Assembly: GCF_016839145.1 (NCBI RefSeq)
Contig: NZ_CP069303.1
Location: forward strand, 3,642,501-3,706,500
DNA length: 64,000 nucleotides
Source of the DNA: Shinella sp. PSBB067
GTDB taxonomy: Bacteria > Pseudomonadota > Alphaproteobacteria > Rhizobiales > Rhizobiaceae
Reading direction: 5' to 3'
The notes below the pieces were generated by a model. That model saw only the letters and a list, made by a program, of their open reading frames with translations, was not told where the DNA came from and made no database searches. The position numbers were made by a program, and so were the translations under genes. Positions 35,639 to 48,591 of this stretch are shown one piece after another (the stretch's first letter is position 1; each line of letters opens with the position of its first letter).

Positions 35639-36922
35639 ATGCTCAACGACCCGCGCTCCCATGGCCTCTGGGAGATGACCGCTCCGCCGGCCCCCGAAAC
35701 CACCGCTTTCTCCGGCAAGGCGGAGGCGGATGTGGTGATCGTCGGTGGCGGCTATACCGGCTTTTCCACCGCGCTGCACCTTGCCGAGCGCGGCACGCGG
35801 GTGATCCTGCTGGAAGGCGCGGAAATCGGCTATGGCGGCTCGGGCCGCAATGTCGGTCTCGTCAATGCCGGCATGTGGGTCATGCCCGACGAACTGCCCG
35901 GCGTGCTCGGCGACCTCTATGGCAGCCGCCTGCTGGAGCTTCTCGGCAATGCGCCACGCCTCGTCTTCGACCTCGTCGGGAAACACGCCATCGACTGCGA
36001 GATCAACCCGGCCGGAACGCTGCACTGCGCCGTCGGCCAGTCCGGCTTCGACGAACTCAAGCAGCGCGCCGAGCAATGGGCGCGCCGCGGCGCACCGGTG
36101 CGCCTGCTCGACGCTGCCGAGACGGCCGCGAAGGTCGGCACCGAGGCCTATGCGGGCTCGCTGCTCGACATGCGCGCCGGCACGATCCAGCCGCTCGCCT
36201 ATGCGCGCGGCCTTGCCCGCGCCGCCATCGCCGCCGGCGCTCATGTCTTCACCGGCAGCCCCGTGACGGGCGCCGAGCGGACCGGAAAGCGCTGGACGGT
36301 CAACACCCCGCGCGGCTCCGTGACGGCGGACTGGGTGGTGGTCGCCACCAATGCCTATACGGTCGCCCCGTGGAACGAGGTGCGCGCCGAACTCGTGCAC
36401 CTTCCCTATTTCAACTTCGCCACCGTGCCGCTGTCGGCGGAGATGCAGGCGAAGATCCTGCCGGAACGGCAGGGCGCCTGGGACACGAAGGAAGTGCTTT
36501 CCTCCTTCCGTTTCGACAAGCGCGGCCGGCTGGTCTTCGGCAGCGTCGGGGCGCTGCGCGGCACCGGCGCGGTCATCCACAAGGAGTGGGCGCGCCGCGC
36601 CCTGAAGAAACTGTTCCCCGCCATCGGCGACGTCGCCTTCGAGGCCGAATGGTACGGCAAGATCGGCATGACCGCGGACAACCTGCCGCGCTTCCACCGC
36701 CTCGGCGAGAACGTCATCGGCTTTTCCGGCTATAACGGCCGCGGCATCGCGCCCGGCACCGTCTTCGGCCGCACCCTCGCCCAGCTCGTCTCCGGCGAGA
36801 TCGCCGAAATGGACCTGCCCCTGCCGGTAACCGATCCCGAGGCCCAGTCCTTCCGCTCGATGCGCGAAGGCTATTACGAACTCGGCGCCCAGATCGCCCA
36901 CTTCGCCGGCGCGCGCCTCTAG
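35639..36922 (+). CDS. FAD-dependent amine oxidase, candidate L-pipecolate oxidase (AmaA-like)
   Basis: This 427-residue DAO-family flavoprotein has DVVIVGGGYTGFSTALHLAE near residues 31-50, YGGSGRNVGLVNAGMW shortly after, and a C-terminal FSGYNGRGIAPGTVFGR. It resembles bacterial L-pipecolate oxidases that feed piperideine-6-carboxylate into the lysine route. Its neighbours supply every later step of that route, which supports the call, but glycine- or sarcosine-type substrates remain possible. A hairpin terminator follows. Confidence 0.75.
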   Translation: MLNDPRSHGLWEMTAPPAPETTAFSGKAEADVVIVGGGYTGFSTALHLAERGTRVILLEGAEIGYGGSGRNVGLVNAGMWVMPDELPGVLGDLYGSRLLELLGNAPRLVFDLVGKHAIDCEINPAGTLHCAVGQSGFDELKQRAEQWARRGAPVRLLDAAETAAKVGTEAYAGSLLDMRAGTIQPLAYARGLARAAIAAGAHVFTGSPVTGAERTGKRWTVNTPRGSVTADWVVVATNAYTVAPWNEVRAELVHLPYFNFATVPLSAEMQAKILPERQGAWDTKEVLSSFRFDKRGRLVFGSVGALRGTGAVIHKEWARRALKKLFPAIGDVAFEAEWYGKIGMTADNLPRFHRLGENVIGFSGYNGRGIAPGTVFGRTLAQLVSGEIAEMDLPLPVTDPEAQSFRSMREGYYELGAQIAHFAGARL

Positions 36923-36946
36923 GCGCTCCCCGCTCCGCATGAACAG

Positions 36947-36972
36947 AAAGGCCGGCGTTTCCGCCGGCCTTT
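36947..36972. terminator. Bidirectional terminator
   Basis: AAAGGCCGGC and GCCGGCCTTT form a perfect 10-bp stem around GTTTCC. It lies between the convergent FAD oxidase and purU genes. Confidence 0.85.
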
Positions 36973-36987
36973 GTCATTTGCGCCCTG

Positions 36988-37872
36988 TCAGCCCATGCGC
37001 TCGGAAGCGTAGCTTCCCGGGCTCGGCGGGAAGACGATGGTCTTGTTGCCGTTCATGAAGACGCGGTGGTGGATGTGGGCGTGCACCGCGCGGGCGAGCA
37101 CCTGGCTCTCGACGTCCCGGCCGATCGAGACATAGTCCTCCGCCGACTGCGCATGCGTGATGCGCGCGACGTCCTGCTCGATGATCGGGCCCTCGTCGAG
37201 GTCCTCGGTGACGTAGTGCGCCGTCGCGCCGATCAGCTTCACGCCGCGCTCGAAGGCCTGCTTGTAGGGGTTCGCCCCCTTGAAGGACGGCAGGAACGAG
37301 TGGTGGATGTTGATGATCCGCCCCGACATCTTCTTGCAGACGGCATCCGACAGCACCTGCATGTAGCGGGCCAGCACGATGAGTTCCGCGCCGGACTGCT
37401 CGACCACCTCCATCAGCCGCGCCTCGGCCTGCGGCTTGTTGTCCTTCGTCACCTTGATGTGGTGGAAGGGGATGTCGTGGTTGACGATGACCTTCTGGTA
37501 GTCGAAGTGGTTGGAGACGACGCCGACGATGTCGATCGGCAGGGCGCCGATCTTCCAGCGGTAGAGCAGGTCGTTGAGGCAATGGCCGAAGCGCGAGACC
37601 ATCAGCAGCACCTTCATGCGCTCGTCGCTGTCGTTGAAGCGCCAGGTCATGGCGAATTTCTTGGCGACCGGGGCGAAGCCCGACTTGATCTCGTCCTCCG
37701 ACACGCCCTCTTGGGACAGGAAGGTCAGGCGCATGAAGAACAGGCCAGTTTCCAGGTCGTCGAACTGCGAGGAGTCGGAGATGTAACACCCCTTCTCGGC
37801 GAGGTAGCCGGTGATCGCAGCGACGATGCCGCGGGTCGATTGGCAGGATACGGTCAGGACGTGGCTTTTCAT
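36988..37872 (-). CDS. purU: Formyltetrahydrofolate deformylase
   Basis: PurU hydrolyses 10-formyltetrahydrofolate to formate and tetrahydrofolate, balancing one-carbon pools. The 294-residue product has an N-terminal ACT domain (HVLTVSCQSTRGIVAAIT) and a C-terminal formyltransferase fold. VVSNHFDY, NIHHSFLPSFKGANPY and TAHYVTEDLDEGPIIEQDV carry the conserved catalytic asparagine, histidine and aspartate. The start at 37872 (MKSHVLTVS) matches the family; a longer upstream frame is not coding-like. It stands alone between two terminated units. Confidence 0.95.
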   Translation of the reverse strand: MKSHVLTVSCQSTRGIVAAITGYLAEKGCYISDSSQFDDLETGLFFMRLTFLSQEGVSEDEIKSGFAPVAKKFAMTWRFNDSDERMKVLLMVSRFGHCLNDLLYRWKIGALPIDIVGVVSNHFDYQKVIVNHDIPFHHIKVTKDNKPQAEARLMEVVEQSGAELIVLARYMQVLSDAVCKKMSGRIINIHHSFLPSFKGANPYKQAFERGVKLIGATAHYVTEDLDEGPIIEQDVARITHAQSAEDYVSIGRDVESQVLARAVHAHIHHRVFMNGNKTIVFPPSPGSYASERMG

Positions 37873-38187
37873 CGGTTTCAATCTCGCGTTCGGCCGGTGC
37901 TGCGGGCAGGCAACGGCGATCCCCTTTTGATGCGGCCGCATTCGCGGCTCGACGCATATTTCAGGCCGCCTGCGGCTGCGCAAGCCCCTGCAATGGCGAG
38001 AAGCTACGCCGACCCTTGCAAGGAATCCCTCCGGTTCGCGACATCCAATGCGTCGAAAATGCCAAGCGGCCCGCTGCGGACGCCCGTTCGCCCCTGCCGG
38101 CCGGCCTGCGGTGATCCCGCCTGAGGGAGGCAGCCGGCGTTTTCTTTCAGAAATGCGAGACGGCCGGGACACCGGCAAGAATCCATC
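37873..38187. other. GC-rich leader region upstream of purU, no gene seen
   Basis: This stretch of about 315 bases has no convincing coding frame. It contains several inverted repeats, including the perfect 12-base palindrome ATGCGGCCGCAT at 37930-37941, and would form a structured leader if transcribed towards purU. I cannot match it to a known RNA family with confidence. Confidence 0.4.
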
Positions 38188-38225
38188 TGGACACTATTAT
38201 GGACACATGTTCTATAAAATGGACA
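38188..38225 (+). promoter_or_regulatory. Triple TGGACA motif before an unknown gene
   Basis: TGGACA occurs at 38188-38193, 38200-38205 and 38220-38225, ending 19 bases before the start at 38245. The middle copy sits in ATTATGGACACAT, which resembles the TATTGGACATAT site before the importer operon at 47628-47651 (read on the minus strand). A shared regulator, probably the local IclR protein, is inferred. Confidence 0.5.
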
Positions 38226-38244: not shown

Positions 38245-39432
38245 ATGCATCTTTCCATGTGGACCTATCCCTGGGACATCCAGGACCAGGGGCTGGAGGC
38301 GCTCGCCGCCGACCTTGCCGGCCGCGCCGGGCTGAACACGGTCAGCATGGCCACCTCCTACCATGCCGGCCGCTTCCTGCAGCCCCGCAGCCCGCGGCAG
38401 AAGGCCTATTTCCCGGAGGATGGCACGGTCTATTTTAGGCCGGACGAAAGCCTCTGGCAGGACAAGACGATCCGCCCGCTGATGGCCGAAAACGTCGCCG
38501 AGCGCGGCGACATGCTGGCGGCGCTGACGAAGGCACGGGCACAGACCGGCCTCAAGGTCTCCTGCTGGACGGTCTGCCTACACAACAGCCGCCTCGGCAT
38601 GCTGCATCCCGGGCATGTCACCCGCAACGCGTTCGGCAATGCCAACTATTACAATCTCTGCCCCTCCAGCCCCGCCGCGCGCGATTATGTCGTGACCCTC
38701 GTCCGCGACATCACGGCGAACTACCGGCCCGACATGCTGGAGCTGGAAAGCCCGAACTTCATGGGCTTTGCCCATGAATACCACCACGAGAAGGACGGCG
38801 TCGGCCTCAATGCCGAGGACGACTTCCTGCTCTCGCTCTGCTTCTGCGACCATTGCACCGCGCGGGCCGAAAAGTCCGGCGTGCCGGTGGAGGGCGCGCG
38901 CAGGACGGTCGCCCGCTTCGTCGCCGAGCTTTGCGAGCGCGCCGTGCCGGAACGGCAGTTCCCCGATTTCCCTGAGGCCGGCATCGACGCCTTCCGCGCC
39001 CATCCCGAGCTTCACGCCTTCCTTGCCTGGCGCAGCGAGCCGGTGACGAGCCTGATCGGCGAGATCAGGGCCGCCGCCGACCCGGCGACGCGCATCGTGC
39101 TGATCGACCTCAAGGACGGCTGGCTCGGCGGCGTCGATCTTGCCGCCGTCGGCAGGCTCTGCGACGGGGCGATCCTCTGCTGCTACGACATGACGCCCGA
39201 GGCCGTCGGCGAGGTCATCCGCACCGGCCGGGCGCTGCTCGGGCCGGACAAGTTCCTGGGACTCGGCCTTCGCGTCTTCTATCCCGAGGTCGACGGCCCT
39301 GATATCCTGACGGCGCGCGTGAAAAACGCCGTCGAAGCGGGCGTCGACGGCGTCAATTTCTATAATTACGGGCTCATTCCGGCCAGGCGCCTCGACTGGG
39401 TGGGCGAGGCGGTGGCGGCGATCAGCCGCTGA
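38245..39432 (+). CDS. Protein of unknown function, TIM-barrel glycosidase-like (395 aa)
   Basis: I do not recognise a named family. The protein begins MHLSMWTYPWDIQDQG. Alternating strand-helix patterns and phrases such as DMLELESPNFMGFAHEY, LIDLKDGWLGGVD and GVDGVNFYNYGLIP suggest a TIM barrel like those of GH10-type or related hydrolases. A CFCDHC motif near residue 204 could bind a metal. No signal peptide is visible, so it is probably cytoplasmic. GGGAG precedes the ATG. It converges on the unassigned catabolic operon, overlapping its last gene by 11 bases, and may share its operator motif, so a role with the same substrate is likely. Confidence 0.8.
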   Translation: MHLSMWTYPWDIQDQGLEALAADLAGRAGLNTVSMATSYHAGRFLQPRSPRQKAYFPEDGTVYFRPDESLWQDKTIRPLMAENVAERGDMLAALTKARAQTGLKVSCWTVCLHNSRLGMLHPGHVTRNAFGNANYYNLCPSSPAARDYVVTLVRDITANYRPDMLELESPNFMGFAHEYHHEKDGVGLNAEDDFLLSLCFCDHCTARAEKSGVPVEGARRTVARFVAELCERAVPERQFPDFPEAGIDAFRAHPELHAFLAWRSEPVTSLIGEIRAAADPATRIVLIDLKDGWLGGVDLAAVGRLCDGAILCCYDMTPEAVGEVIRTGRALLGPDKFLGLGLRVFYPEVDGPDILTARVKNAVEAGVDGVNFYNYGLIPARRLDWVGEAVAAISR

Positions 39433-40435
39433 TCGGCTCGGCCACCTGGATCAGGCAGTCGCCGGGCTGGCTATCGGTGTGCAGCCGGTGGGAAATGACG
39501 ATGCCGCCCTCGGCGAAGCGCAGCGTCTCCTCGCCGTCGTCCAGCCGCTCCAGATCGTGATACCAGCCGGCAAGGTCGCCGGCGGCGACATGCGCGCCGA
39601 GCGCGGCGGCCGGCTCGAACCAGCCGCGCCGGTTCGCATAGATGCCCTGGCTGTGCCGCGACAGCGAGAGAAGCTGCAGCGCGGGCGGTGCGGGCAGGAC
39701 CTGCCGCGACAGGACGGGCTTCTCGACGATGCCGAGCGCCAGGAGCAGCCGGTCGATGGCCGCCGCCGTGAAGGCCATGCTGTCCGGCGTCACCGTTCCG
39801 CCGCCGCCGAATTCGCCGGAAAGGCCGATCGTGCCGGCACGGCCCGCCGCGCCCATCGAGGTCGGCGCCGCCGGCCCGTTGTCGGCGATGAAGGCATGGG
39901 CCGCGCCCATCGCCCGCATCAGCTCGAGCGAGCGCTCGAAGCGCGCGGCATCGGCCTGCCGCTCGATGAGCGTGCAGGCCAGATGCGCCATGGAGGTGCC
40001 GCCGGAATGGAGGTCGAGCACCGCGTCGTGTTGCGGGAACAGCGTGTGTTCGAGGAAATGCGCCAGCCGCACCGTCGGCGTGCCGGCGGGATCGCCCGGA
40101 AAGGCGCGATTGAGATTGCCGCCGTCGAAGGGCGAGCAGCGCTTCGCCGCCATCACCGCCGGCAGGTTCGCCATCGGCAGGATGGTGACGGCGCCGCGGA
40201 TCGTCGCCGCATCGAGAAGCCGCATCAGCCGCCCGAGCTGAAGCTCACCCTCATATTCGTCGCCATGGTTGCCCGCTATCAGCAGAAGGCTCGGTCCCGC
40301 GCCGTTCTTCAGGCGCAGGATCGGGATGCGGATCTGGTAATAGGGCGAGCGGTCGACCGAATAGGGAATGGCGAGATGCCCGGCCTGCCGGCCGTCCAGC
40401 GCGAAATCGATCGGGTTGACAAGTCCGCTGTGCAT
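39422..40435 (-). CDS. Zinc-dependent AstE/AspA family hydrolase
   Basis: The 337-residue enzyme belongs to the succinylglutamate desuccinylase/aspartoacylase (M14-like) family. Zinc ligands are seen in NHGDEYE (His57, Glu60) and DLHSGG (His143), with NLNRAFPGDP at 107-116 forming the substrate site. Members remove acyl groups from amino acids or related amides. GGAGA precedes the ATG at 40435. It ends the unassigned operon, and its 3' end overlaps the convergent gene at 38245 by 11 bases. The substrate is unknown. Confidence 0.87.
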   Translation of the reverse strand: MHSGLVNPIDFALDGRQAGHLAIPYSVDRSPYYQIRIPILRLKNGAGPSLLLIAGNHGDEYEGELQLGRLMRLLDAATIRGAVTILPMANLPAVMAAKRCSPFDGGNLNRAFPGDPAGTPTVRLAHFLEHTLFPQHDAVLDLHSGGTSMAHLACTLIERQADAARFERSLELMRAMGAAHAFIADNGPAAPTSMGAAGRAGTIGLSGEFGGGGTVTPDSMAFTAAAIDRLLLALGIVEKPVLSRQVLPAPPALQLLSLSRHSQGIYANRRGWFEPAAALGAHVAAGDLAGWYHDLERLDDGEETLRFAEGGIVISHRLHTDSQPGDCLIQVAEPISG

Positions 40436-40465
40436 GGGGGTCTCCAGTCCGGGCAGGGGCCACCC

Positions 40466-40810
40466 TCAGAGGGCGGCGACGGCGGTCATCTCGACGCGCA
40501 GGTCGGGATCGGCAAGGCGGGCCTCGACGCAGGCGCGGGCCGGCGGATTCGCCGGATCGATCCAGGCGTCATAGACGCCGTTCATCGCATCGAAATCCAC
40601 GATCGCCGGCAGGAAGACGTTGACGGCGAGGAGCTTCGAGCGATCCGTGCCGGCTTCCTTCAGAAGGGCGTCGATCTTGCCGAGCACGTCCTGCGTCTGG
40701 GCTTCGATGCCGGCCTTGCGGTCTTCGGCGACCTGGCCGGCAATGTAGACGAGACCGCCATAGCTGACGGCCTGGCTCATGCGCGAACCCTTCTGGTAAC
40801 GCTGGATCAT
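40466..40810 (-). CDS. RidA family enamine/imine deaminase
   Basis: This 114-residue protein has the RidA (YjgF) fold pattern, with GGLVYIAGQVAED near residue 20 and the arginine-bearing PARACVEARLAD near residue 90. RidA proteins hydrolyse reactive enamines and imines, such as 2-aminoacrylate, released by PLP enzymes. It lies directly after a DSD1-type PLP enzyme, so it probably clears that enzyme's product. AAGGA precedes the ATG. Confidence 0.9.
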   Translation of the reverse strand: MIQRYQKGSRMSQAVSYGGLVYIAGQVAEDRKAGIEAQTQDVLGKIDALLKEAGTDRSKLLAVNVFLPAIVDFDAMNGVYDAWIDPANPPARACVEARLADPDLRVEMTAVAAL

Positions 40811-40848
40811 CGCGTGTTTTCCTTTTCTTTATGCTTGCTTGGGGAGGA

Positions 40849-42159
40849 TCAGCCGAAGCTGGTGAGATAGGCCACTGTCACCGTATGGTCCGGGTCGAGG
40901 CCGTAGAGGATGGCGTGCCGGTCGAGGCAGGTGCAGGGATGCGAGATGCCGAATTCGACCACGTCGCCGACGGCAACGTCGCTTGCCCCCGGCAGGACGA
41001 CGAAGGCGTGCTGGTCGTTGAGGCGCAGCACCTCGGCGCCGGTGAAATCGCCAAGCCGCGCGCCGTTCCGGTAAAGCGCCAGCGGCCGCGGCAGGCCCTG
41101 GTCGATGGCGACGTCGCGAAGGCCCATGCCGCAGATCGCAAGGCCCGGCTCGGGGCGCGACAGCACCTCCGCCCAGACCCTGAGCGCCGGCCGGAAGCCC
41201 CCGGAGGCCGACGCGGTCTCCTCGCCGATGCGGAAGCCGCCGCGCGCATCGAGGCCGGCAAGGCCGCGCTCGTAGATACCGTGGTCGTGGAAGAAGATCG
41301 CCCCGCAGCGCAGCACCATCCGGCAATCGGGATCGGCCCTGACGGCGGCGGAAAGCCCGGCGACGACCCGGTCGAAGAAGACCGAACCGCCTGCCGTCAC
41401 CAAGAGCGGCCGCTCGCTGCCGATGCGGGCACGCACCTTCGGCAGGAAATCCGCCGTGAGCTGCATCAGGCCGTCGATCCGGCTCAGCGTCTCATCGGCA
41501 TCGGCGGTCGCGGCGGCGCCCTCATAGGCGGCGATGCCGGTCAGCCGGAAGTTTGGCGTTTCCGCCGCAAGGATGGCGTCGAGGATCGCCCCGGCGGCCT
41601 CGGCGCTGCGCGCACCGGCACGGCCGGCGCCGAACTCGACGAGGAGGCCGAGCGGCGGCAGGTCGCCGCGTTCCTGCCAGGCCGTGCGCAGCGCCTCGGC
41701 CAACGGGAGCGAATCGACAAAAATATGCACCTCGGCCGTCGGATAGCCGGCGAGCAGCGCGGCGAGGCGGCGGGCGGCGGCAAGGCCGCCGATCTCGTTG
41801 GCAAGCAGCAGCCGGCGCTGGCCGGCCTTGAGCAGCACGGCGGCCTGGCGGATATCGGCGACGGTCGTGCCCCACGCGCCCGCGGCGAGCAGCGCGCCGG
41901 AAATCGCCGTCGACATCGGCGTCTTGGCATGCGGGGCGATCTCGACGCCCTGGCCTTTCACATAGGCCATCATCAGGTCGACATTGGCGGCGAAGGCCTG
42001 CCGGTCGAGCGAGATCAGCGGCAGCGCCATATTGCCGTCGAAGGGCTTCCAGCCCTGCTTGCCGATGGCATCGAGCGCAAGCGGCGCATGGCCCGGCGGA
42101 AAGCCGCGGATGCGGTCGTCGATCATTGGATTGTCGGTGGCGGCGTGAAGGTCAGACAT
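40849..42159 (-). CDS. DSD1/D-threonine aldolase-like PLP enzyme (amino acid deaminase)
   Basis: The 436-residue protein is a fold-type III PLP enzyme with an alanine racemase-like N-terminal barrel; the probable PLP lysine is Lys79 in PHAKT. The C-terminal domain keeps the zinc-site pattern of eukaryotic-type D-serine dehydratase (DQHAFVVL and ISHPCTCLDRH). Relatives dehydrate D-serine or cleave D-threonine. I chose ATG 42159 (MSDLHAATDN) because GGGAGA lies just upstream; the frame upstream shadows the amidohydrolase. It overlaps that gene by eight bases. A D-beta-hydroxy amino acid is the likely substrate type, and RidA downstream would handle the imine. Confidence 0.85.
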   Translation of the reverse strand: MSDLHAATDNPMIDDRIRGFPPGHAPLALDAIGKQGWKPFDGNMALPLISLDRQAFAANVDLMMAYVKGQGVEIAPHAKTPMSTAISGALLAAGAWGTTVADIRQAAVLLKAGQRRLLLANEIGGLAAARRLAALLAGYPTAEVHIFVDSLPLAEALRTAWQERGDLPPLGLLVEFGAGRAGARSAEAAGAILDAILAAETPNFRLTGIAAYEGAAATADADETLSRIDGLMQLTADFLPKVRARIGSERPLLVTAGGSVFFDRVVAGLSAAVRADPDCRMVLRCGAIFFHDHGIYERGLAGLDARGGFRIGEETASASGGFRPALRVWAEVLSRPEPGLAICGMGLRDVAIDQGLPRPLALYRNGARLGDFTGAEVLRLNDQHAFVVLPGASDVAVGDVVEFGISHPCTCLDRHAILYGLDPDHTVTVAYLTSFG

Positions 42160-43087
42160 GGTGTTCTCCCATCCCGAGGCGGTAGGTCTCGTTGGCGGTC
42201 GTGAAGAAAAGGGCGCGCTGCTCGTCGAGCGAAAGAGGCGCGGCGACGGTGCGGAAGACGGCGTAGACCTCGTCGAAGGAGGCATGCAAGCCGGCCACGG
42301 GGAAATCGCTGGCGAACATCGCGCGCGCCGGCCCGAAGCAATCGAGCCCGTGCTCGATGACCGGCCGCAGGCTTTCGAGCGCCCAGTCGTTGTCATAGGC
42401 GACGAGGTCGGAGATCTTCAGCCGCACGTTCGGCTCGCGGCCGAGCGCCCGCAGGCCGCTCCTCCAGAGCGCCATGCCCGCCTCGCTCCGGTCCGCCGGG
42501 CTGCCGGCATGGTTGAGCACGAAGAGCGTGTCGGGAAAGGCGCGCACGAGATCGACCGCCTCGTCCATCTGCCAGGGATAGAGCATCAGGTCGAAGACGA
42601 GGCCGAGGCGGGCAAGATGGGCAAGCCCGCGGCGCCAGGCGGGGTCGGCCATGCGATGCGGGCGCGGCGCAAAGCTCTTTGCCGGCTCCGGGTGCCAGCT
42701 CACGATATCGCGGATGCCGATGACATTCGGATTGGCCGCTTCCGTTTCGAGCAGGCGAAGGACATCGGGACTGTCGAGGGGGACGCGGGCAACATAGCGC
42801 CGCGCGATGCCCGAGGAACGGTCGAGCCCGTCCAGCCAACGGCTTTCCTCCAGCGGATGCGCATCCGACCAGCCGGCCTCGACATGCACCGTGGCGACGA
42901 TGTCCTGCCGCACGGCATCGGCGCGATATTCGGCGATGCCGTAGTCCTTCAGGATCGGCGCGAGGCTGCCATAGACCATCTCGCCGCCGGTCGCCCGCGC
43001 CTTTTCCAGCCAGGGATGACGCCCGAGCGAAAGATCCCAGAGATGGTGGTGCGGGTCGATGACCGGCCCACCGTAACGCACCGTCAT
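42152..43087 (-). CDS. Amidohydrolase-2 family metal hydrolase, lactonase-like
   Basis: This 311-residue TIM-barrel protein starts with the metal motif DPHHHLWDL (residues 11-19) and ends with FASDFPVAGLHASFDEVY. It resembles the family that includes L-fuconolactonase and L-rhamnono-lactonase (COG3618). It may open a sugar lactone or cleave a related ring. It overlaps the upstream permease gene by four bases and the downstream DSD1-like gene by eight, so it belongs firmly to the operon. Confidence 0.88.
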   Translation of the reverse strand: MTVRYGGPVIDPHHHLWDLSLGRHPWLEKARATGGEMVYGSLAPILKDYGIAEYRADAVRQDIVATVHVEAGWSDAHPLEESRWLDGLDRSSGIARRYVARVPLDSPDVLRLLETEAANPNVIGIRDIVSWHPEPAKSFAPRPHRMADPAWRRGLAHLARLGLVFDLMLYPWQMDEAVDLVRAFPDTLFVLNHAGSPADRSEAGMALWRSGLRALGREPNVRLKISDLVAYDNDWALESLRPVIEHGLDCFGPARAMFASDFPVAGLHASFDEVYAVFRTVAAPLSLDEQRALFFTTANETYRLGMGEHHV

Positions 43088-44025
43088 CGCCGCGCCTCGC
43101 GGCCGGAAATGAGCAGCAGCGCAAGAATCAGCGTGCCGAACATGATCGAGCGCCAGCCGGGCGAGGCATTGACCACCGTGATCAGCGCCGTCGTGGTGAC
43201 GAGCAGGATCGCGCCGGGAATGGTGCCGGCATAGGTGCCGCGCCCGCCGAGGATGGAGGTGCCGCCGAGCACGACGGCCGCGATCGACGTCAGGAGATAG
43301 GGATCGCCGATGCCGACATAGCCCTGCCGGTTCATGCCGAGCACCAGGATGCCGGCAAGGCCGGCGAAGAAGCCGGAAAGCGCATAGAGGATCAGCGTGT
43401 TGCGCGTGACGCTGACGCCGGAAAGCCGCGTCGCCAGCGGATTGGCCCCGAGCGCGAGGAAGCGCGCGCCGATGGGCATGCGGTGGATGAGCAGCAGCAC
43501 GCCGGCCGAGACGACGACCCAGAGGATCACGCCGGCGGGAATGCCGAGCGGCCGGGCCTGCCCGAGCAGGATGACGGCCGGATTGCTGACGGTGACCGCA
43601 CTGCCGCCGGCGACGATGACGAGCAGGCCCTGCAGGAAGGTCGCCATGGCGAGCGTCATGATGATCGGGGGCACGCGGAGATAGGCCGCCCCCGCGCCGT
43701 TGAGAAAGCCGATGCCGGCGGCAATCGCCAGCGCAAGGACGATGCCGACGAGGCCCGTCGGGTCCCAGACGGGCGAGATCAGCGGCAGGAGGATCGCCGT
43801 GACGGTGATGACCGCGCCGACCGAAAGGTCGATGCCGCCCATCAGGATGACGAGCGTCTGGCCGGCGGCCGCGATGCCGATGACGGCGGCCAGCTCCAGA
43901 AGGTAGCGCAGGTGCCCGTAGGCGCCGAAGCCGCGCAGCGTGAGGCCGGCGACGAGCCAGACGAGCGCCACCAGCACGAAGGTCAGGAACGGCGGGTTAC
44001 GGAACAGGGATCGCACTGCATTCAT
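43084..44025 (-). CDS. ABC sugar importer permease (RbsC-like)
   Basis: The 313-residue inner-membrane protein has about eight to ten predicted membrane segments and the family pattern IGIAAAGQTLVILMGGIDLSVG near residue 50, with VVLGGTSILGGRGTYAGTIPG near residue 240. These are typical of ribose/rhamnose-type permeases. The start at 44025 (MNAVRSLFRN) overlaps the preceding permease stop by four bases. It pairs with the next permease to form the channel. Confidence 0.92.
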   Translation of the reverse strand: MNAVRSLFRNPPFLTFVLVALVWLVAGLTLRGFGAYGHLRYLLELAAVIGIAAAGQTLVILMGGIDLSVGAVITVTAILLPLISPVWDPTGLVGIVLALAIAAGIGFLNGAGAAYLRVPPIIMTLAMATFLQGLLVIVAGGSAVTVSNPAVILLGQARPLGIPAGVILWVVVSAGVLLLIHRMPIGARFLALGANPLATRLSGVSVTRNTLILYALSGFFAGLAGILVLGMNRQGYVGIGDPYLLTSIAAVVLGGTSILGGRGTYAGTIPGAILLVTTTALITVVNASPGWRSIMFGTLILALLLISGREARR

Positions 44026-44987
44026 CGCCTTGCCCTCCAGACGCCGAGAAGTTCCGGCACCGCGACGGCGCCGACGATGATCAGGCCCTGCGCGACATAT
44101 TGCGCGACGGGCGGGAAGCCGAGGAAGAACATCACGTTGATCATGACGGAAAGCAGCAGGCTGCCGCAGATCGCCCCGCGCATCGTGCCCTTGCCGCCGA
44201 GGAAGCCGACGCCGCCGAGCACGGCCGCGGCAATCGAGTTCAGCGTGAAGGGCGTGCCGATGACCGGGTCGCCCGAGCCGGTCTGTGCCGCGACGAAGAG
44301 GCCGGCCAGCGCCGCCAGCAGGCCGGAAAGCGCGAAGGAGACGATCTTCACCCGCTCGACCGGAACGCCGGAGCGGAAGGCGCCGACGGGATTGTCGCCC
44401 GCCGCATAGATGCCGAGGCCGAGCGGCGTTGCCAGAAACGCCTTCCAGAGCACGAGGACGGCGACGAGCAGCAGGAAGGCGACCGGCGTGTGGCCGGCGA
44501 GCGTCGTCGAAAGCCAGCCGGGAATGAAGCCGCCCGGACGCGGCAGGAGGATCAGCGCGACGCCGGTGATGATGAAGGAGCCGGCCAGCGTCACGATGAT
44601 CGCCGGCAGGCGCAGATGCGCGACGATGGCCCCAGTGACAGCGCCGATGGCAAGGCCGGTGAAGGCGACGGCGAGGAAGCCGCCCGGCACGCCGAGGACG
44701 CCCTCCATGGTGGTCGCGGCGATGACCGCGCCGAGGCTGACGAGCGGGCCGATGGCGAGCGTGATGCCGCCGTTCAGCATCAGGAGCGCCTGCGCCATGG
44801 TGACGAGCGCCAGCGGGAACCAGTTCTGCGTGAACTTGGAGAAGCCGCCGACGGAAAGGATGCCTGGAAAGAGCACGGCATAAAGGATGAGGAAGGCGGC
44901 GACGACGAGGTAGAGGCCGCCGAGGCCGCGATTGCGACGGCGCTGGACGGCGCCGTAGAGCCAGCCGGAGGACGAAACGGTGCTCAT
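44022..44987 (-). CDS. ABC sugar importer permease (RbsC-like)
   Basis: This second permease of 321 residues shows MAQALLMLNGGITLAIGPLVS and AAVLGGVGFLGGKGTMRGAI, the same landmarks as its partner, with several membrane helices. Two unlike permeases in one system suggest a heterodimeric channel, as in rhamnose- and autoinducer-2-type importers. Its ATG overlaps the stop of the ATPase gene by four bases. Confidence 0.92.
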   Translation of the reverse strand: MSTVSSSGWLYGAVQRRRNRGLGGLYLVVAAFLILYAVLFPGILSVGGFSKFTQNWFPLALVTMAQALLMLNGGITLAIGPLVSLGAVIAATTMEGVLGVPGGFLAVAFTGLAIGAVTGAIVAHLRLPAIIVTLAGSFIITGVALILLPRPGGFIPGWLSTTLAGHTPVAFLLLVAVLVLWKAFLATPLGLGIYAAGDNPVGAFRSGVPVERVKIVSFALSGLLAALAGLFVAAQTGSGDPVIGTPFTLNSIAAAVLGGVGFLGGKGTMRGAICGSLLLSVMINVMFFLGFPPVAQYVAQGLIIVGAVAVPELLGVWRARR

Positions 44988-46492
44988 GCGGCCGCTCCCT
45001 TTCTGTCGATGCCCATGGCCGCGCCGACGATGGCCTCTTCACTGATGGCGTCGCCCGACAGCGTCGCCGCGACGCGGCCCTCGCGCAGCACCACGACGCG
45101 GTCGCACAAATGCACGAGCTCGGGCGTATCGGAGCTTGCGAGGATGACGAGCCGGCCCTCGGCGGCGAAGGCGCGCAGCATGAGATAGATCTCGCGCTTG
45201 GTCTCGATGTCGACGCCGCGCGTCGGATCGTTGAGCAGCAGCACGGACGGGTCGAGCGGCAGCCACTTGGCGAGCGCCACCTTCTGCTGGTTGCCGCCCG
45301 AAAGCGCCTGCACCGGGCGGGCGACGTCGCCCTTGATGGTGAGCCGGCGGGCGAGATCGGCGATCAGCCCGGTTTCCGCGGCCCTGTCGCGCAGGCCCCC
45401 GCGCGCAAGCCGGCCGAGGGAGGGCAGGATGAGGTTGGAGGCGATGGAATGCGGCAGCACCAGCCCCTCGTGCTTGCGGTCGGCCGGCACATAGACGATG
45501 CCGGCCGCATTGGCCGCCTCGACATGGACGGGCAGGCCGTTCTTCCCCGAGACCTCGGCCTTGTCGGCCCTTGCGGGGATCGCGCCGTAAAGGCCGAGCA
45601 GCAGGTCTTCCTGCCCCTGCCCGACAAGGCCGCCGATGCCGACGATCTCGCCCGCGTGGGCGGAAAAGCCGATGTCGCGCACGAGGCCGGCGGAAAAGCC
45701 CTCGACGCCGATGCGCAGCGCGCCGGGAGCGGGAACGGGGCGCGGCGGGAAGAGATCGCCCGTCTCGCGGCCGACCATGAGGCGCACCAGCCCCTCCCCG
45801 TCGATGCCGGCGAGCGACTGGTCGGCGGTGACGCCGCCATCCTTCAGCACGGTGACATGGGAGCAGAGCGCCTGCACCTCGTTGAGGCGATGGGAAATGT
45901 AGAGCAGCGCCGTGCCGCGGTCGCGCAGCGTCTCGATGAGGCGGGCGAGGATGCCGGCCTCATGGGCGGAGAGCGAGGAGGTCGGCTCGTCGAGGATGAG
46001 CACGCGGGGCTTGCGGAAGAGCGCCTTGGCGATCTCCACCATCTGGCGGCGGCCGAGCGCGAGGTCGGCGACCGGCATGTCGAGCGGCTCGGTGAGGCCC
46101 ACCATGTCGCAGACCTCCCGCACGCCGCGGTGGAGCGCGGCATAATCGATGAGGCCGAAGCGGCGCGGGAAGGCGCCGAGGCCGATATTCTCGGCGATCG
46201 ACAGGTCGGCCGTCAGGCTCAGCTCCTGCTGCACCACGGCGATGCCGGCCGCGCGGGCGGCGGCCGGGCTGAAGCGCCCGACCGGCTTGCCGTCGACGGA
46301 AATCGTGCCGCTGTCCGGCTGGAGAGCGCCGGACAGCAGATTGATCAGCGTGGATTTTCCCGCGCCGTTCTCGCCGAGCAGGGCGTGGACCCTGCCCGGC
46401 AGAAGGGCGATATCGACGCCCTTCAGAACCGGATTGCCGAAAAATCCCTTGAACACCTGCCGGGCTTCCAGCAGGGGCCTTGGTTCCGTCAT
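44984..46492 (-). CDS. ABC sugar importer ATPase (RbsA-like, two domains)
   Basis: The 502-residue protein contains two nucleotide-binding domains. The first has a good Walker A (GENGAGKST, residues 40-48) and Walker B (VLILDEPTSSLS), with LALGRRQ in place of the usual LSGGQ. The second lacks a normal Walker A (GIGGLVGQGQED) but keeps LSGGNQQK, a known pattern in ribose-type ATPases. It starts 20 bases after the binding-protein stop. Confidence 0.94.
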   Translation of the reverse strand: MTEPRPLLEARQVFKGFFGNPVLKGVDIALLPGRVHALLGENGAGKSTLINLLSGALQPDSGTISVDGKPVGRFSPAAARAAGIAVVQQELSLTADLSIAENIGLGAFPRRFGLIDYAALHRGVREVCDMVGLTEPLDMPVADLALGRRQMVEIAKALFRKPRVLILDEPTSSLSAHEAGILARLIETLRDRGTALLYISHRLNEVQALCSHVTVLKDGGVTADQSLAGIDGEGLVRLMVGRETGDLFPPRPVPAPGALRIGVEGFSAGLVRDIGFSAHAGEIVGIGGLVGQGQEDLLLGLYGAIPARADKAEVSGKNGLPVHVEAANAAGIVYVPADRKHEGLVLPHSIASNLILPSLGRLARGGLRDRAAETGLIADLARRLTIKGDVARPVQALSGGNQQKVALAKWLPLDPSVLLLNDPTRGVDIETKREIYLMLRAFAAEGRLVILASSDTPELVHLCDRVVVLREGRVAATLSGDAISEEAIVGAAMGIDRKGAAA

Positions 46493-46511
46493 GACGGCGT
46501 CCTCTTCGGCT

Positions 46512-47582
46512 TTACTGCGCGATCAGCTTGTCGAACAGCGCCTGGTCGTAATCCGAATAGATGTAGCCGTCGGCCGGGAACTGGTCGGCGCGGGCGAGGT
46601 AGCCGTCGATCGAGCTGTCGTCGATGACCGGCAGCGGCACCTTGATGAAGGCGGGAACGTCCTTGCCTTCCAGCGCCTGCACGGCCGTGTAGACGGAAAG
46701 CGCGCCCAGCCAGTTCGGCTGCATCGTCGCCCAGCCCTTCAGGCCCTTTTCCTTCCACAGCTCCAGGAACTGGCGGGCATTCTCGCCGGTGATCGGAACC
46801 TGCTCGCGGCCCTGGCGGTCGAAGGCCATGACGGAACCGGCCGAAAGCGCGCCGCCGAGCGAGAGCACGCCGTCGATCTCCGGATTGGCGAAGAGCAGGC
46901 TCGTCATCGCCTCCTGCGCCGGGGCGACATTGTATTCGGTGTTCGTCTCGGTGATGATCTCGAGGCCCGGATTGGCGTCGAGCACCGGCTGGGCACCCTT
47001 GCGGCGGTCGTCGCTGACCGAGATGCCGGCCGGGCCGTTCATGACGATGATCTTGCCCTTGCCGCCGAGCTGGTCGGCAAGCCACTTGGCGGCGCCCGCG
47101 CCCCATTCGTTGGAATCGGTGTTGATCTTCGCCGTCACCTTGTCGGTGTTGACGAGGCTGTCGAAATTCACGACGGCGATGCCCTTGTCGCAGGCATCCG
47201 AGATGACGCGGTCGAGCGCGTTGGACGAGCCGGCGATGACGACGATGGCGTCGACATTGGCGTCGATCATCGACTGGATGTGCTGGATCTGCGTCTGGGC
47301 GTTGCCCTGCGCGTCCGTGATCATCAGGTCCTTGACGAGGCCATCCTTCTTCAGCGTCTCGACCTCGGCGGCAATCGTGCCTTCGGTCTGCTTCATCCAG
47401 GTCGGCACCGAATAGATGTTGGCCCAGCCGATCGTGTAGGGCGCCTTGCGATCGCCCTTGATGCAGTTGGCGGCGGCCGACGCCGTGCCGGCGCCAAGGA
47501 CGAGAAGAGCCGCGGCGGCAGCGGCACCCGCGAGAAGGCGGCTGCGCAGCGAGGCGGACGGGCGGTGCTTGGAAATGTTCAT
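46512..47582 (-). CDS. Sugar ABC importer periplasmic binding protein
   Basis: The 356-residue product starts with a Sec signal peptide: basic residues, then an alanine/leucine-rich core, with likely cleavage after ASA near residue 36. The mature part is a type I periplasmic binding protein of the ribose/xylitol class (QGNAQTQIQHIQSMIDANVDAIVVIAG is split over the first lobe; GVLSLGG in the second). I chose ATG 47582 because AAGGGG lies about seven bases upstream. As first gene after the divergent IclR regulator it heads the eight-gene operon. The ligand is not deducible. Confidence 0.93.
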   Translation of the reverse strand: MNISKHRPSASLRSRLLAGAAAAAALLVLGAGTASAAANCIKGDRKAPYTIGWANIYSVPTWMKQTEGTIAAEVETLKKDGLVKDLMITDAQGNAQTQIQHIQSMIDANVDAIVVIAGSSNALDRVISDACDKGIAVVNFDSLVNTDKVTAKINTDSNEWGAGAAKWLADQLGGKGKIIVMNGPAGISVSDDRRKGAQPVLDANPGLEIITETNTEYNVAPAQEAMTSLLFANPEIDGVLSLGGALSAGSVMAFDRQGREQVPITGENARQFLELWKEKGLKGWATMQPNWLGALSVYTAVQALEGKDVPAFIKVPLPVIDDSSIDGYLARADQFPADGYIYSDYDQALFDKLIAQ

Positions 47583-47627
47583 GTCGATCCCCTTTTGTGC
47601 GGCAGCAGGAACGGGCTTGCCATCCGT

Positions 47628-47651
47628 ATATGTCCAATATAATGTACATAT
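47628..47651. promoter_or_regulatory. Inverted repeat operator between importer operon and IclR gene
   Basis: ATATGTCC (47628-47635) and GTACATAT (47644-47651) are inverted with one mismatch around an AT-only 8-base spacer. The core TGGACA on the minus strand recurs three times before the gene at 38245. It is a candidate IclR binding site. Confidence 0.5.
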
Positions 47652-47805
47652 GATCTTTATACCGGACGGCGCGATCTTATGCCGATTTTCCTGCCTCGCA
47701 AGAGGGGCATGAAAATTTCCCTGCCGGGGACGGAAAACGAGCGGATTGACAGATGTCGCAGCCGGCGTGACAAGCTGGCGCGACGAAAAGCGGGGACCCA
47801 CGCGA

Positions 47806-48591
47806 ATGGATGCAATTGCAGACGATGCAGGCGGCAAGCGCGCCCGGGGGCTCGACCGGGCCTTCGAGATCCTCGATTTCCTGCGCCAGAAACGCCAGCC
47901 GCTGAAGCCGAACGAGATCGCCGCGCAGATCGGCGCGCCGCGCTCATCGGTCTACGAGCTGGTGAACCTCCTCTTGCGCAACGGCATTCTGGAATTCACC
48001 GGCGGCGAGGGCCGCGTCTATCTCGGCCGCAAGCTCTATTTCCTCGGCGCGGCCTACGAGAACCATTTCGATTTCACCCGCGAATGCGAGGCAACACTCG
48101 ACCGGCTCGCCGACGAGACGCGCGAAACCGCGCAGTTCTGCATGCTGGACGGCAACAAATACACGGTCGTGCGCATGCGCGAGGGCGCACGCCCCTTCCG
48201 CATCTCCACGGACATCGGCCAGTCGGTGCCGATCCCGTGGACCGCCTCGGGCCGGCTTCTGGTCGCCCATATGACGGATGCGGAGATCCTCGCCTTCATC
48301 CCCCCGGAGGATTTTCGCCTGCCGGGTGGCGAATGGCTCGATCCGCAGGCGTTCCTGGCGGAGGTTCGGCAATCGGCGACCGAAGGCTTCTTCACCTTCA
48401 ACAGCATCGTCGACAGTTTCACCCACTGCTTCGCCGTGCCCGTCATGGACGAGGAAGGCCATGCCGCCGCGACGCTCTGCCTCGTCGCCCCGCGCGCCGA
48501 CGGCCTTGCCAATCGCGACCGCTACCTCGCCTGCCTGAGGGACGCCGCCGCCGGCCTCAGCCACGTTCCGGCACGGGCAAAACGCGCCTGA
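47806..48591 (+). CDS. IclR family regulator
   Basis: The 261-residue protein has an N-terminal winged helix (LKPNEIAAQIGAPRSSVYELVNLLL) and a C-terminal IclR effector domain (AETREFTAQ-like region DETRETAQFCMLDG, then PIPWTASGRLLVAHM). I prefer ATG 47806 (MDAIADDAGG), with GGGGA about ten bases upstream; an ATG at 47746 would add 20 residues. It is divergent from the importer operon and the obvious candidate to control it. The effector is presumably the imported compound or an intermediate. Confidence 0.9.
   Translation: MDAIADDAGGKRARGLDRAFEILDFLRQKRQPLKPNEIAAQIGAPRSSVYELVNLLLRNGILEFTGGEGRVYLGRKLYFLGAAYENHFDFTRECEATLDRLADETRETAQFCMLDGNKYTVVRMREGARPFRISTDIGQSVPIPWTASGRLLVAHMTDAEILAFIPPEDFRLPGGEWLDPQAFLAEVRQSATEGFFTFNSIVDSFTHCFAVPVMDEEGHAAATLCLVAPRADGLANRDRYLACLRDAAAGLSHVPARAKRA

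Follow-up and report, generated by a model that had tools for sequence, protein, structure and literature searches.

A conserved ten-gene set in soil bacteria

The window (the whole stretch of DNA that was analysed, 64,000 nucleotides from Shinella sp. PSBB067) carries a ten-gene set, conserved in soil bacteria, that comprises an importer, an IclR-family regulator and five enzymes. By their ORF coordinates, eight of the genes (39422-47582, minus strand) are closely packed, with overlaps of 4, 4, 4 and 8 bp among the ATPase, permease, amidohydrolase and PLP enzyme genes and remaining gaps of 19, 38 and 30 bp, and the IclR gene is divergent from them. The genes and candidate sites are the following:

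38188-38205 and 38208-38225, no strand: two imperfect copies of the candidate operator, directly before the barrel gene
38245..39432, plus strand: glycoside-hydrolase-like TIM barrel by its AF2 model, 395 aa, tail-to-tail with the AstE gene
39422..40435, minus strand: AstE/AspA-type N-deacylase, DoeB-like (AstE_AspA_cat PF24827, 157 bits)
40466..40810, minus strand: RidA-family protein (Ribonuc_L-PSP PF01042, 90.7 bits)
40849..42159, minus strand: fold-type III PLP deaminase of the D-serine deaminase/OngC superfamily (D-ser_dehydrat PF14031, Ala_racemase_N PF01168)
42152..43087, minus strand: COG3618-type amidohydrolase, sugar-lactonase-like (Amidohydro_2, 119 bits)
43084..44025, minus strand: ABC permease 2, ribose type (BPD_transp_2 PF02653)
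44022..44987, minus strand: ABC permease 1, ribose type (BPD_transp_2 PF02653)
44984..46492, minus strand: twin ATPase, AraG/RbsA type (two ABC_tran stretches; AraG model 442.6 of 689 bits)
46512..47582, minus strand: periplasmic binding protein, ribose type (Peripla_BP_4 PF13407, 176.7 bits)
47631..47648, no strand: candidate operator TGTCCAATATAATGTACA, between the IclR and binding-protein genes
47806..48591, plus strand: IclR-family regulator (PF01614, PF09339); the ORF spans 47746-48591 and the likely start at 47806 was judged from sequence

The first-pass annotation had described an eight-gene operon at this place; its genes are present and tightly packed, but the description was incomplete, having missed the plus-strand gene at 38245-39432, and with the regulator the set amounts to ten.

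We collected 80 loci by similarity to the window PLP enzyme, with no row dropped, and required at least 42% identity and half coverage before scoring a gene as present. The eight genes and the barrel gene occur together in 66 of the 80 loci, which provides the conserved copies in other genomes that the first-pass annotation had named beforehand as a check. The enzyme genes also keep company with the importer elsewhere, as the same annotation supposed: the importer genes are present in 71 loci, the AstE gene in 75 and the RidA gene in 72, far above the counts of three window neighbours outside the set (5, 1 and 10 of 80), and this company therefore goes beyond chance. The barrel gene was found in 68 loci, the homologue in locus L105 (35% identity) being scored as missing because of the 42% threshold; several loci are truncated at contig ends, for example L058 (3444 bases) and L105 (8887), and ORFs in the relative loci were picked by a simple base-composition rule instead of a gene finder.

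The set has been kept despite rearrangements, such as the inversion of the amidohydrolase gene in Mesorhizobium and the displacement of the AstE and RidA genes in Aureimonas, and across divergence that lowers PLP protein identity to 53-60%, while the flanking genes are lost. Rhizobiales account for most of the 80 loci, and PLP genes without the rest of the set also occur (L051, L059 and L064, for example). A further gene, found in 11 loci, was considered as a DoeA-type peptidase and discarded, as its sequence by eye is that of a LacI-family regulator. The promoter and terminator scan gave no excess over shuffles (1 against 0.9 and 5 against 5.8).

Protein families encoded by the set

Pfam and NCBIfam profiles bore out the families that had been named from the letters alone, i.e., a sugar-type importer, a deacylase, a lactonase-type protein, a PLP enzyme and RidA. 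The importer is of the ribose type (CUT2), as profile matches of Peripla_BP_4, the twin ATPase and the BPD_transp_2 permeases indicate. The PLP enzyme carries the motifs PHAKT and HPC (in several rows the motif search caught a different HPD stretch, and those rows were left unused), and its best solved relative is 3gwq, named D-serine deaminase (180 bits). In the tree it falls in a clade of its own, sister to the OngC clade (95/90 against 99/98); OngC-type rows were chosen by gene content with the published OngC sequence not included, and ten rows, mostly ong-type, failed the composition test. The clade on the OngC side may also hold D-serine deaminases. The window enzyme was rejected as an OngC orthologue on account of its place in the sister clade.

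The AstE-type protein, with the motifs HGDE, NLNR, DLHSGG and GEFGG, has as its best NCBIfam model DoeB TIGR02994, at 187 bits and under the cut-off of 402.7; an ectoine-type pathway was discarded on that score and because no other ectoine gene stands among the ten scanned. The amidohydrolase reaches 101.3 bits with the L-fucono-1,5-lactonase equivalog (cut-off 400). The regulator scores best with BhcR (70.5 of 350 bits), and its best paralogue in its own genome is only 25% identical.

The tenth gene product matches no Pfam or NCBIfam family. Its AF2 model (pLDDT 88.4, pTM 0.90) resembles the PgaB C-terminal domain, GH42, GH156 and Cwp19, the first Foldseek match being PgaB in complex with GlcNAc, and a glycoside-hydrolase-like protein fits, as far as the model goes, with a sugar conjugate. 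The invariant residues are E168, H177, H180, H181, E182 and N374; as strand 7 lacks an invariant acid, a canonical retaining glycosidase is unsupported. Among the 17 places examined of 38 listed, barrel homologues keep varied company, including Gfo/Idh/MocA dehydrogenases, a second ribose-type importer with PTE-type and creatininase-type proteins (L118), and an EF_0837-type amidohydrolase with a BhcC-like PLP enzyme and RidA (L125).

A predicted operator shared by two promoters

Of 72 regions upstream of binding-protein genes, that of the window among them, 60 contain a site of the operator form with at most one mismatch. The two copies before the barrel gene have weight-matrix scores of 14.6 and 13.7 and rank second and third in the whole window; 200 simulated 64-kb windows gave no site scoring 13.7 or more, and two unrelated sites in the actual genome, at 15.6 and 18.9, exceed both barrel sites. 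The predicted operator is thus common to the importer promoter and the separately transcribed barrel gene. The one-mismatch pattern occurs at six places in the 5.77 Mb genome (11 strand matches, against 3 for the backward control pattern): two are the known promoters, three others fall within ORFs and the remaining one (L161) has no chosen ORF nearby. No further regulon member was recognised by eye within 1.5 kb on each side of these other four. Operator sites are absent from the divergent amidohydrolase/PLP promoter in Mesorhizobium-type loci, and a strong site is absent from eight loci in which the barrel gene has its own promoter.

Related clusters and a probable link to amino-sugar acids

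The window regulator is 56%, 55% and 46% identical to the IclR proteins adjoining a PLP relative in loci L144, L145 and L146, respectively. L144, where the closest one sits in a RidA-PLP-kinase cluster, and L145 carry KdgK-like kinases (392 and 380 bits; cut-off 400) and lack the operator near the IclR gene; L146 has OngB-like, RidA and SSS genes together with a perfect operator (score 26.6). In L153 a PLP relative stands with a GntP gluconate permease, an OngB-like gene and RidA. The L149 cluster comprises a barrel homologue (33%), SDR, OngC-like and OngB-like genes, DgoK and DgoA (NF006600, 281.5 over 207), and reads as a putative complete amino-aldonate route. The presence of KdgK-like kinase, DgoK/DgoA and gluconate permease genes next to PLP relatives speaks for sugar acids. 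Across the PLP-relative loci examined (20 of 46 genomes matched), an OngB-like gene lies near the PLP relative in 14 and the barrel gene occurs in only one. A D-aminoacylase-like gene is found in 7 of the 80 loci (8 with L104); it was rejected as an OngB orthologue, the one member scanned (L067) giving 280 bits with D-aminoacylase against 241 with PpOngB.

A candidate pathway and its alternatives

From the observed gene families, conserved company and shared operator we infer every activity, the substrate and the order of steps in a candidate pathway: the ten genes would form an IclR regulon for import and catabolism of an N-acyl-2-amino-2-deoxy-aldonate (hexonate), its lactone or a small glycoside, a reading to which we give about an even chance. 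Following uptake by the ribose-type ABC importer, the barrel protein would split a glycosidic or related bond, the COG3618-type protein would open the lactone and the AstE-type protein would remove the N-acyl group, setting free a D-2-amino-3-hydroxy acid, for instance D-glucosaminate. The PLP enzyme would then eliminate water, giving an enamine/imine and hence a 2-keto-3-deoxy-aldonate and ammonia, with RidA speeding or detoxifying the imine, and a KDG kinase and KDPG aldolase encoded elsewhere would complete the breakdown; for the kinase, the genome has a KdgK-like gene (271 of 400 bits), and for the aldolase a match of 233 bits, both outside the set. The net effect would be to turn an oxidised N-acylated amino sugar into ordinary sugar-acid food. 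Against this reading, the window set holds no KDG kinase or aldolase, and no oxidase or LPMO linked to the regulon was found. The sister-clade place of the PLP enzyme, the missing operator near the IclR genes of L144 and L145, the sites outside the set that outscore those of the barrel gene, the promoters with no site or no strong one, the barrel's lack of an invariant acid on strand 7, the other company kept by barrel relatives and the single barrel gene among the PLP-relative loci examined also count against it. The first-pass annotation had proposed a sugar-like conjugate releasing a D-beta-hydroxy amino acid whose enamine RidA removes; the importer, deacylase, lactonase-type and PLP/RidA families agree with it, but the amino acid is likely to be itself an amino-sugar acid, a 2-amino-2-deoxy-aldonate, rather than hung on a sugar.

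In the main rival reading, the compound broken down is a simple D-beta-hydroxy amino acid (D-serine, D-threonine or D-3-hydroxyaspartate, for example) that is N-acylated and may also be glycosylated or lactonised, with the amidohydrolase and barrel acting on the conjugate. The name of 3gwq, the acceptance of D-Ser and D-Thr by OngC according to parts of the published account (PMC9537276), a polar-amino-acid ABC transporter in 8 of the 80 loci and the D-aminoacylase-like gene with its better D-aminoacylase score all speak for it; however, the importer is of the ribose type, lactonase-like and glycosidase-like proteins would be unneeded, and the genes beside the PLP relatives indicate sugar acids, so that we hold it somewhat unlikely. 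The varied company of the barrel homologues and invariant residues unlike those of a canonical retaining glycosidase would suit a different amino-sugar-related compound (an amino-uronate, a diamino sugar, a nucleoside-antibiotic fragment or a rhizosphere opine-like conjugate), the barrel being an isomerase or lyase and not a hydrolase, but the L149 cluster argues against this and we consider it improbable. Chance or recent common descent could also have brought together an unrelated importer and enzymes, given the predominance of Rhizobiales and the lone PLP genes; this is already disfavoured and very improbable, because the set survives rearrangement and divergence that the flanking genes do not and because the predicted operator is common to the two promoters.

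Extending the amino-aldonate reading, the set might give Rhizobiales and some other soil bacteria a second route, convergent for the most part, by which C1-oxidised amino sugars are used, with an IclR regulon, its own ABC importer, a Pfam-less GH-like family to split the oxidised glycoside, a dedicated amino-aldonolactonase, an AstE-type aldonate deacylase and its own PLP clade with RidA. We advance this only tentatively. The substrates would be N-acetyl-hexosaminate lactones and their glycosides, which lytic chitin oxidation or sugar oxidases leave behind in soil and the rhizosphere. For marine bacteria, PMC9537276 describes oxidative chitin use that extends beyond the lytic monooxygenases; if the reading is true, plant-associated soil bacteria would perform the same chemistry with other enzymes, a nameless glycosidase-like family would be placed, the generic AstE-type and COG3618 families would gain a sugar-acid substrate, and the unexplained RidA requirement of amino-aldonate chemistry could be tested in a second system.

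Comparison with known systems

In the open-access literature searched (most subscription journals being outside this scope) no description of the gene set was found. The main text of a rhizosphere transcriptome paper (PMC3333776) gave, as far as it was covered, no mention of its features, and the sections covered of an IclR survey (PMC8222616) mention COG3618 only in a broad comment and in the reference list.

Individual proteins have relatives in described systems. BhcC, the D-3-hydroxyaspartate aldolase, belongs to the same fold-III PLP superfamily as the window enzyme but to a separate tree branch; a beta-hydroxyaspartate cycle was discarded, its score being 79 of 690 bits. DoeB/EutE, the N-acetyl-L-2,4-diaminobutanoate deacetylase of ectoine catabolism, shares the AstE/AspA family with the window deacylase, which stays far from the equivalog cut-off. 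The fold closest to the amidohydrolase is that of the COG3618 L-fucono-1,5-lactonase 4dlf (28% identity), and the barrel is only 11-14% identical to the PgaB C-terminal glycoside hydrolase domain, Cwp19 and GHL10.

The closest system overall is the ong cluster of the marine Pseudoalteromonas prydzensis ACAM 620, for which we rely on parts of the published account (PMC9537276). It encodes an oxidative chitin pathway for GlcNAc1A (N-acetyl-glucosaminate), in which OngA is a glycosidase, OngB an N-deacetylase and OngC a fold-III PLP deaminase converting GlcN1A into KDG and NH3, and the RidA protein OngD is required for growth. The first-pass annotation knew of no described pathway with this set; the ong pathway has the same chemistry, and what stands of that statement is that the protein families differ at most steps. 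The types of step predicted for the window set match those of ong (glycosidase, N-deacylase, fold-III PLP deaminase, RidA, importer and repressor), and RidA beside the deaminase, an ong feature, recurs here as the PF01042 match. However, the ong importer is an SSS symporter with a TBDR and the window importer a ribose-type ABC system; the deacylases are D-aminoacylase-type (OngB) and AstE-type, the ong glycosidase is a GH20 and its putative counterpart a GH-like barrel, and the regulators are MurR/RpiR and IclR. The KDG kinase is part of the ong cluster and absent from the window set, and the COG3618-type protein is an addition of the window. With the L067 protein as query, the window's own genome gave only local OngB-like matches (29 and 24 bits), and a search for GH20 hexosaminidase (PF00728) gave no match, so the barrel and AstE-type proteins would fill those steps. 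The two PLP deaminases belong to sister clades, and the ong-like cluster L146 combines an IclR protein 46% identical to that of the window with the same predicted operator.

Composition and conservation of the gene set

The eight genes named in the first-pass annotation, and their families, were all recovered by Pfam and NCBIfam scans (four importer genes, an amidohydrolase, a PLP protein, RidA and AstE). They are tightly spaced, with overlaps of 4-8 bp or else gaps of 19-38 bp, and an IclR gene in divergent orientation stands at the head of the operon. All eight assignments were correct, but one member had been overlooked, a glycoside-hydrolase-like TIM barrel protein ("barrel") with zero Pfam or NCBIfam matches and no PDB match by sequence at E 1.

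Genes of the set referred to individually
38245-39432 (+), barrel gene, 395 aa, convergent with the AstE gene
40849-42159 (-), PLP gene, fold-type III deaminase
47806-48591 (+), IclR gene

The host Shinella genome comprises 5.77 Mb in 4 contigs, its nearest named relative being Shinella zoogloeoides PQ7, at 97% for the PLP protein. Scanning this protein against a genome-contig collection gave 196 relatives, and the best 80 of the 196 loci were used, so that all counts of gene company are conditional on the PLP gene. The importer, enzyme and barrel genes were jointly present in 66 of these 80 PLP-picked loci, the conserved copies in other genomes that the first-pass annotation had proposed looking for, and the enzyme genes keep the importer's company elsewhere, each of the four importer genes being found in 71. 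The amidohydrolase gene was present in 70, RidA in 72, AstE in 75, barrel in 68 and IclR in 62. Of the non-set neighbours taken as comparison, an HI0933-like gene recurred in 10/80 loci; the FAD-dependent oxidoreductase and PurU-type genes that adjoin the set at 35639-37957, outside the top operator scores described below, were kept in 1/80 and 5/80.

The full set was seen in Shinella, Rhizobium, Mesorhizobium, Sinorhizobium, Labrys, Nitratireductor, Aureimonas and Brucella/Ochrobactrum, and its internal rearrangements across genera argue that it does not merely reflect unbroken recent descent. At least one member is missing in 14/80 loci: an Inquilinus locus (L097) lacks RidA and barrel, in three Azospirillum loci PLP, RidA and AstE are accompanied by a polar-amino-acid ABC transporter that takes the importer's place, and in L051, L059 and L064 the PLP gene occurs with the remainder absent. 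Of 247 genomes of the family, 36 gave a barrel match and 86 a PLP-protein match at 1e-10; reading the lists by hand, a close barrel gene (>500 bits) was found in 25 and a close PLP gene (>480 bits) in 16, with both in 14 genomes, 13 of these within 18 kb.

In Shinella daejeonensis (L051/L113) the lone PLP gene is flanked by HI0933-like and PurU-type formyl transferase genes, as though this site had lost the other members of the set. At a locus of the same genus (L119), only IclR (91%) and barrel (82%) were found, beside an HI0933-like gene; two operator copies (14.6 and 11.7) precede the barrel gene, and a search of that genome (G011) for a close PLP gene found none. In R. johnstonii pRL10 (L106:14105-21308) a separate gene set lies downstream of the barrel gene, annotated as aldolase/decarboxylase, polar amino-acid ABC importer, SDR, NAC regulator, aminotransferase and PxpA.

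For the R. johnstonii 3841 binding protein the computed mass is 37.92 kDa and the pI 5.17, equal to those of pRL100415 in Table 5 of PMC7105596, an identity by mass and charge only. According to that paper, pRL100415 was measured in pea-nodule bacteroids, with a reduced level when gmcA was mutated (-0.79, P 0.0492).

A common predicted operator

A palindromic site, TGTCYR-N6-YRGACA, lies upstream of the binding-protein gene, and 60/72 binding-protein upstream regions carry it with at most one mismatch. A weight matrix built from 24 distinct sites, with barrel-gene upstream regions excluded from training, gave its top score over the 64-kb window at 47631 (25.9), the IclR spacer itself; ranks 2 and 3, at 38188 (14.6) and 38208 (13.7), lie directly before the barrel gene, and rank 4 scores 11.4. 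The value of 13.7 was never reached in 200 simulated windows with the same first-order base statistics, and among 20,000 local-composition segments three had one site at or above it and none had two. The actual genome gives a noisier background than the simulated sequence: a one-mismatch pattern search gave six places, two being the IclR-spacer and barrel promoters and the other four scoring 12.9, 13.2, 15.6 and 18.9.

Across loci, 34/69 barrel upstream regions exceeded the 99.9% level (10.7, from 4396 random segments), sites that are not independent because every one belongs to a Shinella or Rhizobium locus in which the barrel gene has its own promoter. In 27 of the remaining 35 the barrel gene is co-directional behind the operon; eight loci with their own barrel promoter lack a strong site, namely L052 (with a LacI-type regulator), L062, L063, L065, L067, L072, L074 and L079. 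Upstream sites over the 99% level were found for 0/72 amidohydrolase, 0/73 RidA, 0/76 AstE and 1/81 PLP genes. The latter is the lone PLP gene of L064 (L064:9971-11314), near sigma-70 and primase genes, where the promoter operator is among the best copies (26.4) and the neighbourhood showed neither an importer nor an IclR gene from the set. Taken together, the set's company and the common predicted operator uphold the original observation and enlarge it to one putative regulon of ten genes.

Related clusters and the proposed substrate

Gene content of clusters with relatives of the barrel or PLP gene
L115, L116, L117, L118, L121: barrel gene (72-76%) adjoining a second, different ribose-type importer
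L125: more distant barrel homologue, EF_0837-type deacetylase, two Gfo/Idh/MocA dehydrogenases, SDR, BhcC-like PLP enzyme, RidA
L144, L145: RidA, IclR, PLP relative, KdgK-like kinase
L146: GH3, PLP relative, IclR (46%), OngB-like, RidA, SSS
L149: carbohydrate ABC importer, RidA, 33% barrel homologue, SDR, OngC-like, HexR-like regulator, OngB-like, DgoK, DgoA
L153: PLP relative, GntP gluconate permease, OngB-like, RidA

From the families and gene company we infer all activities, and we see an about even chance that the regulon takes up and breaks down an N-acyl-2-amino-2-deoxy-aldonate or else its lactone or glycoside. Among 398 genomes drawn from the phylum, 46 had a PLP relative (1e-30); 20 of the 46 were fetched, and in 14/20 an OngB-like gene (OngA-OngD being the enzymes of ong, the oxidative chitin, or GlcNAc1A, pathway) lies near it. 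Scans confirmed GH20 in L138, L139 and L147, the symporter family SSS in L138, L146 and L147, and a KdgK-like kinase (390 of 400 bits) with KDPG aldolase in L134. The IclR of L144/L145 is 55-56% identical to that of the window, whose best home paralogue reaches 25%; no operator was found near the L144/L145 gene. In L146 the IclR gene is preceded by two sites, one a perfect operator (26.6) and the other scoring 17.0.

The chief rival, in which the substrate would be N-acyl D-beta-hydroxy amino acids, we consider less likely. L149 is the sole cluster (1/20 fetched) directly joining the barrel family to an amino-aldonate route, and the kinase and aldolase genes there point to a galacto-configured keto acid at that locus. 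Against such a link, 5/11 close barrel loci without the PLP gene have another ribose-type importer (L118 also PTE-type and creatininase-type proteins by scan), so the barrel is not bound exclusively to amino-acid release; this arrangement is perhaps another undescribed sugar-derivative pathway. The L125 type, whose EF_0837-type amidohydrolase scored 389.6 against NF006689 (over 371), is perhaps a further kind of cluster, and distant homologues in L110 and L126-L130 have partly similar company (BLAST label or by eye).

Comparison with the ong pathway

Of the pathways described so far, the ong route of Pseudoalteromonas comes closest. According to PMC9537276, OngA is a beta-hexosaminidase cleaving C1-oxidised chitooligosaccharides, the D-aminoacylase-like OngB (described also in PMC12017989) deacetylates GlcNAc1A, the fold-III PLP enzyme OngC converts GlcN1A to KDG and ammonia, KdgK acts after OngC, and OngD is a RidA protein required for the route, its role there unexplained. 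The Shinella genome gave no GH20 match, and only local matches, up to 29 bits, to an OngB-like protein. The first-pass annotation had known of no described pathway with this gene set; the ong route has like step types, every one with a window counterpart except the kinase, but the importer, glycosidase and deacylase belong to unlike families and the window set has an extra lactonase-like step. On the favoured substrate reading, the regulon would be a new version of an ong-kind pathway.
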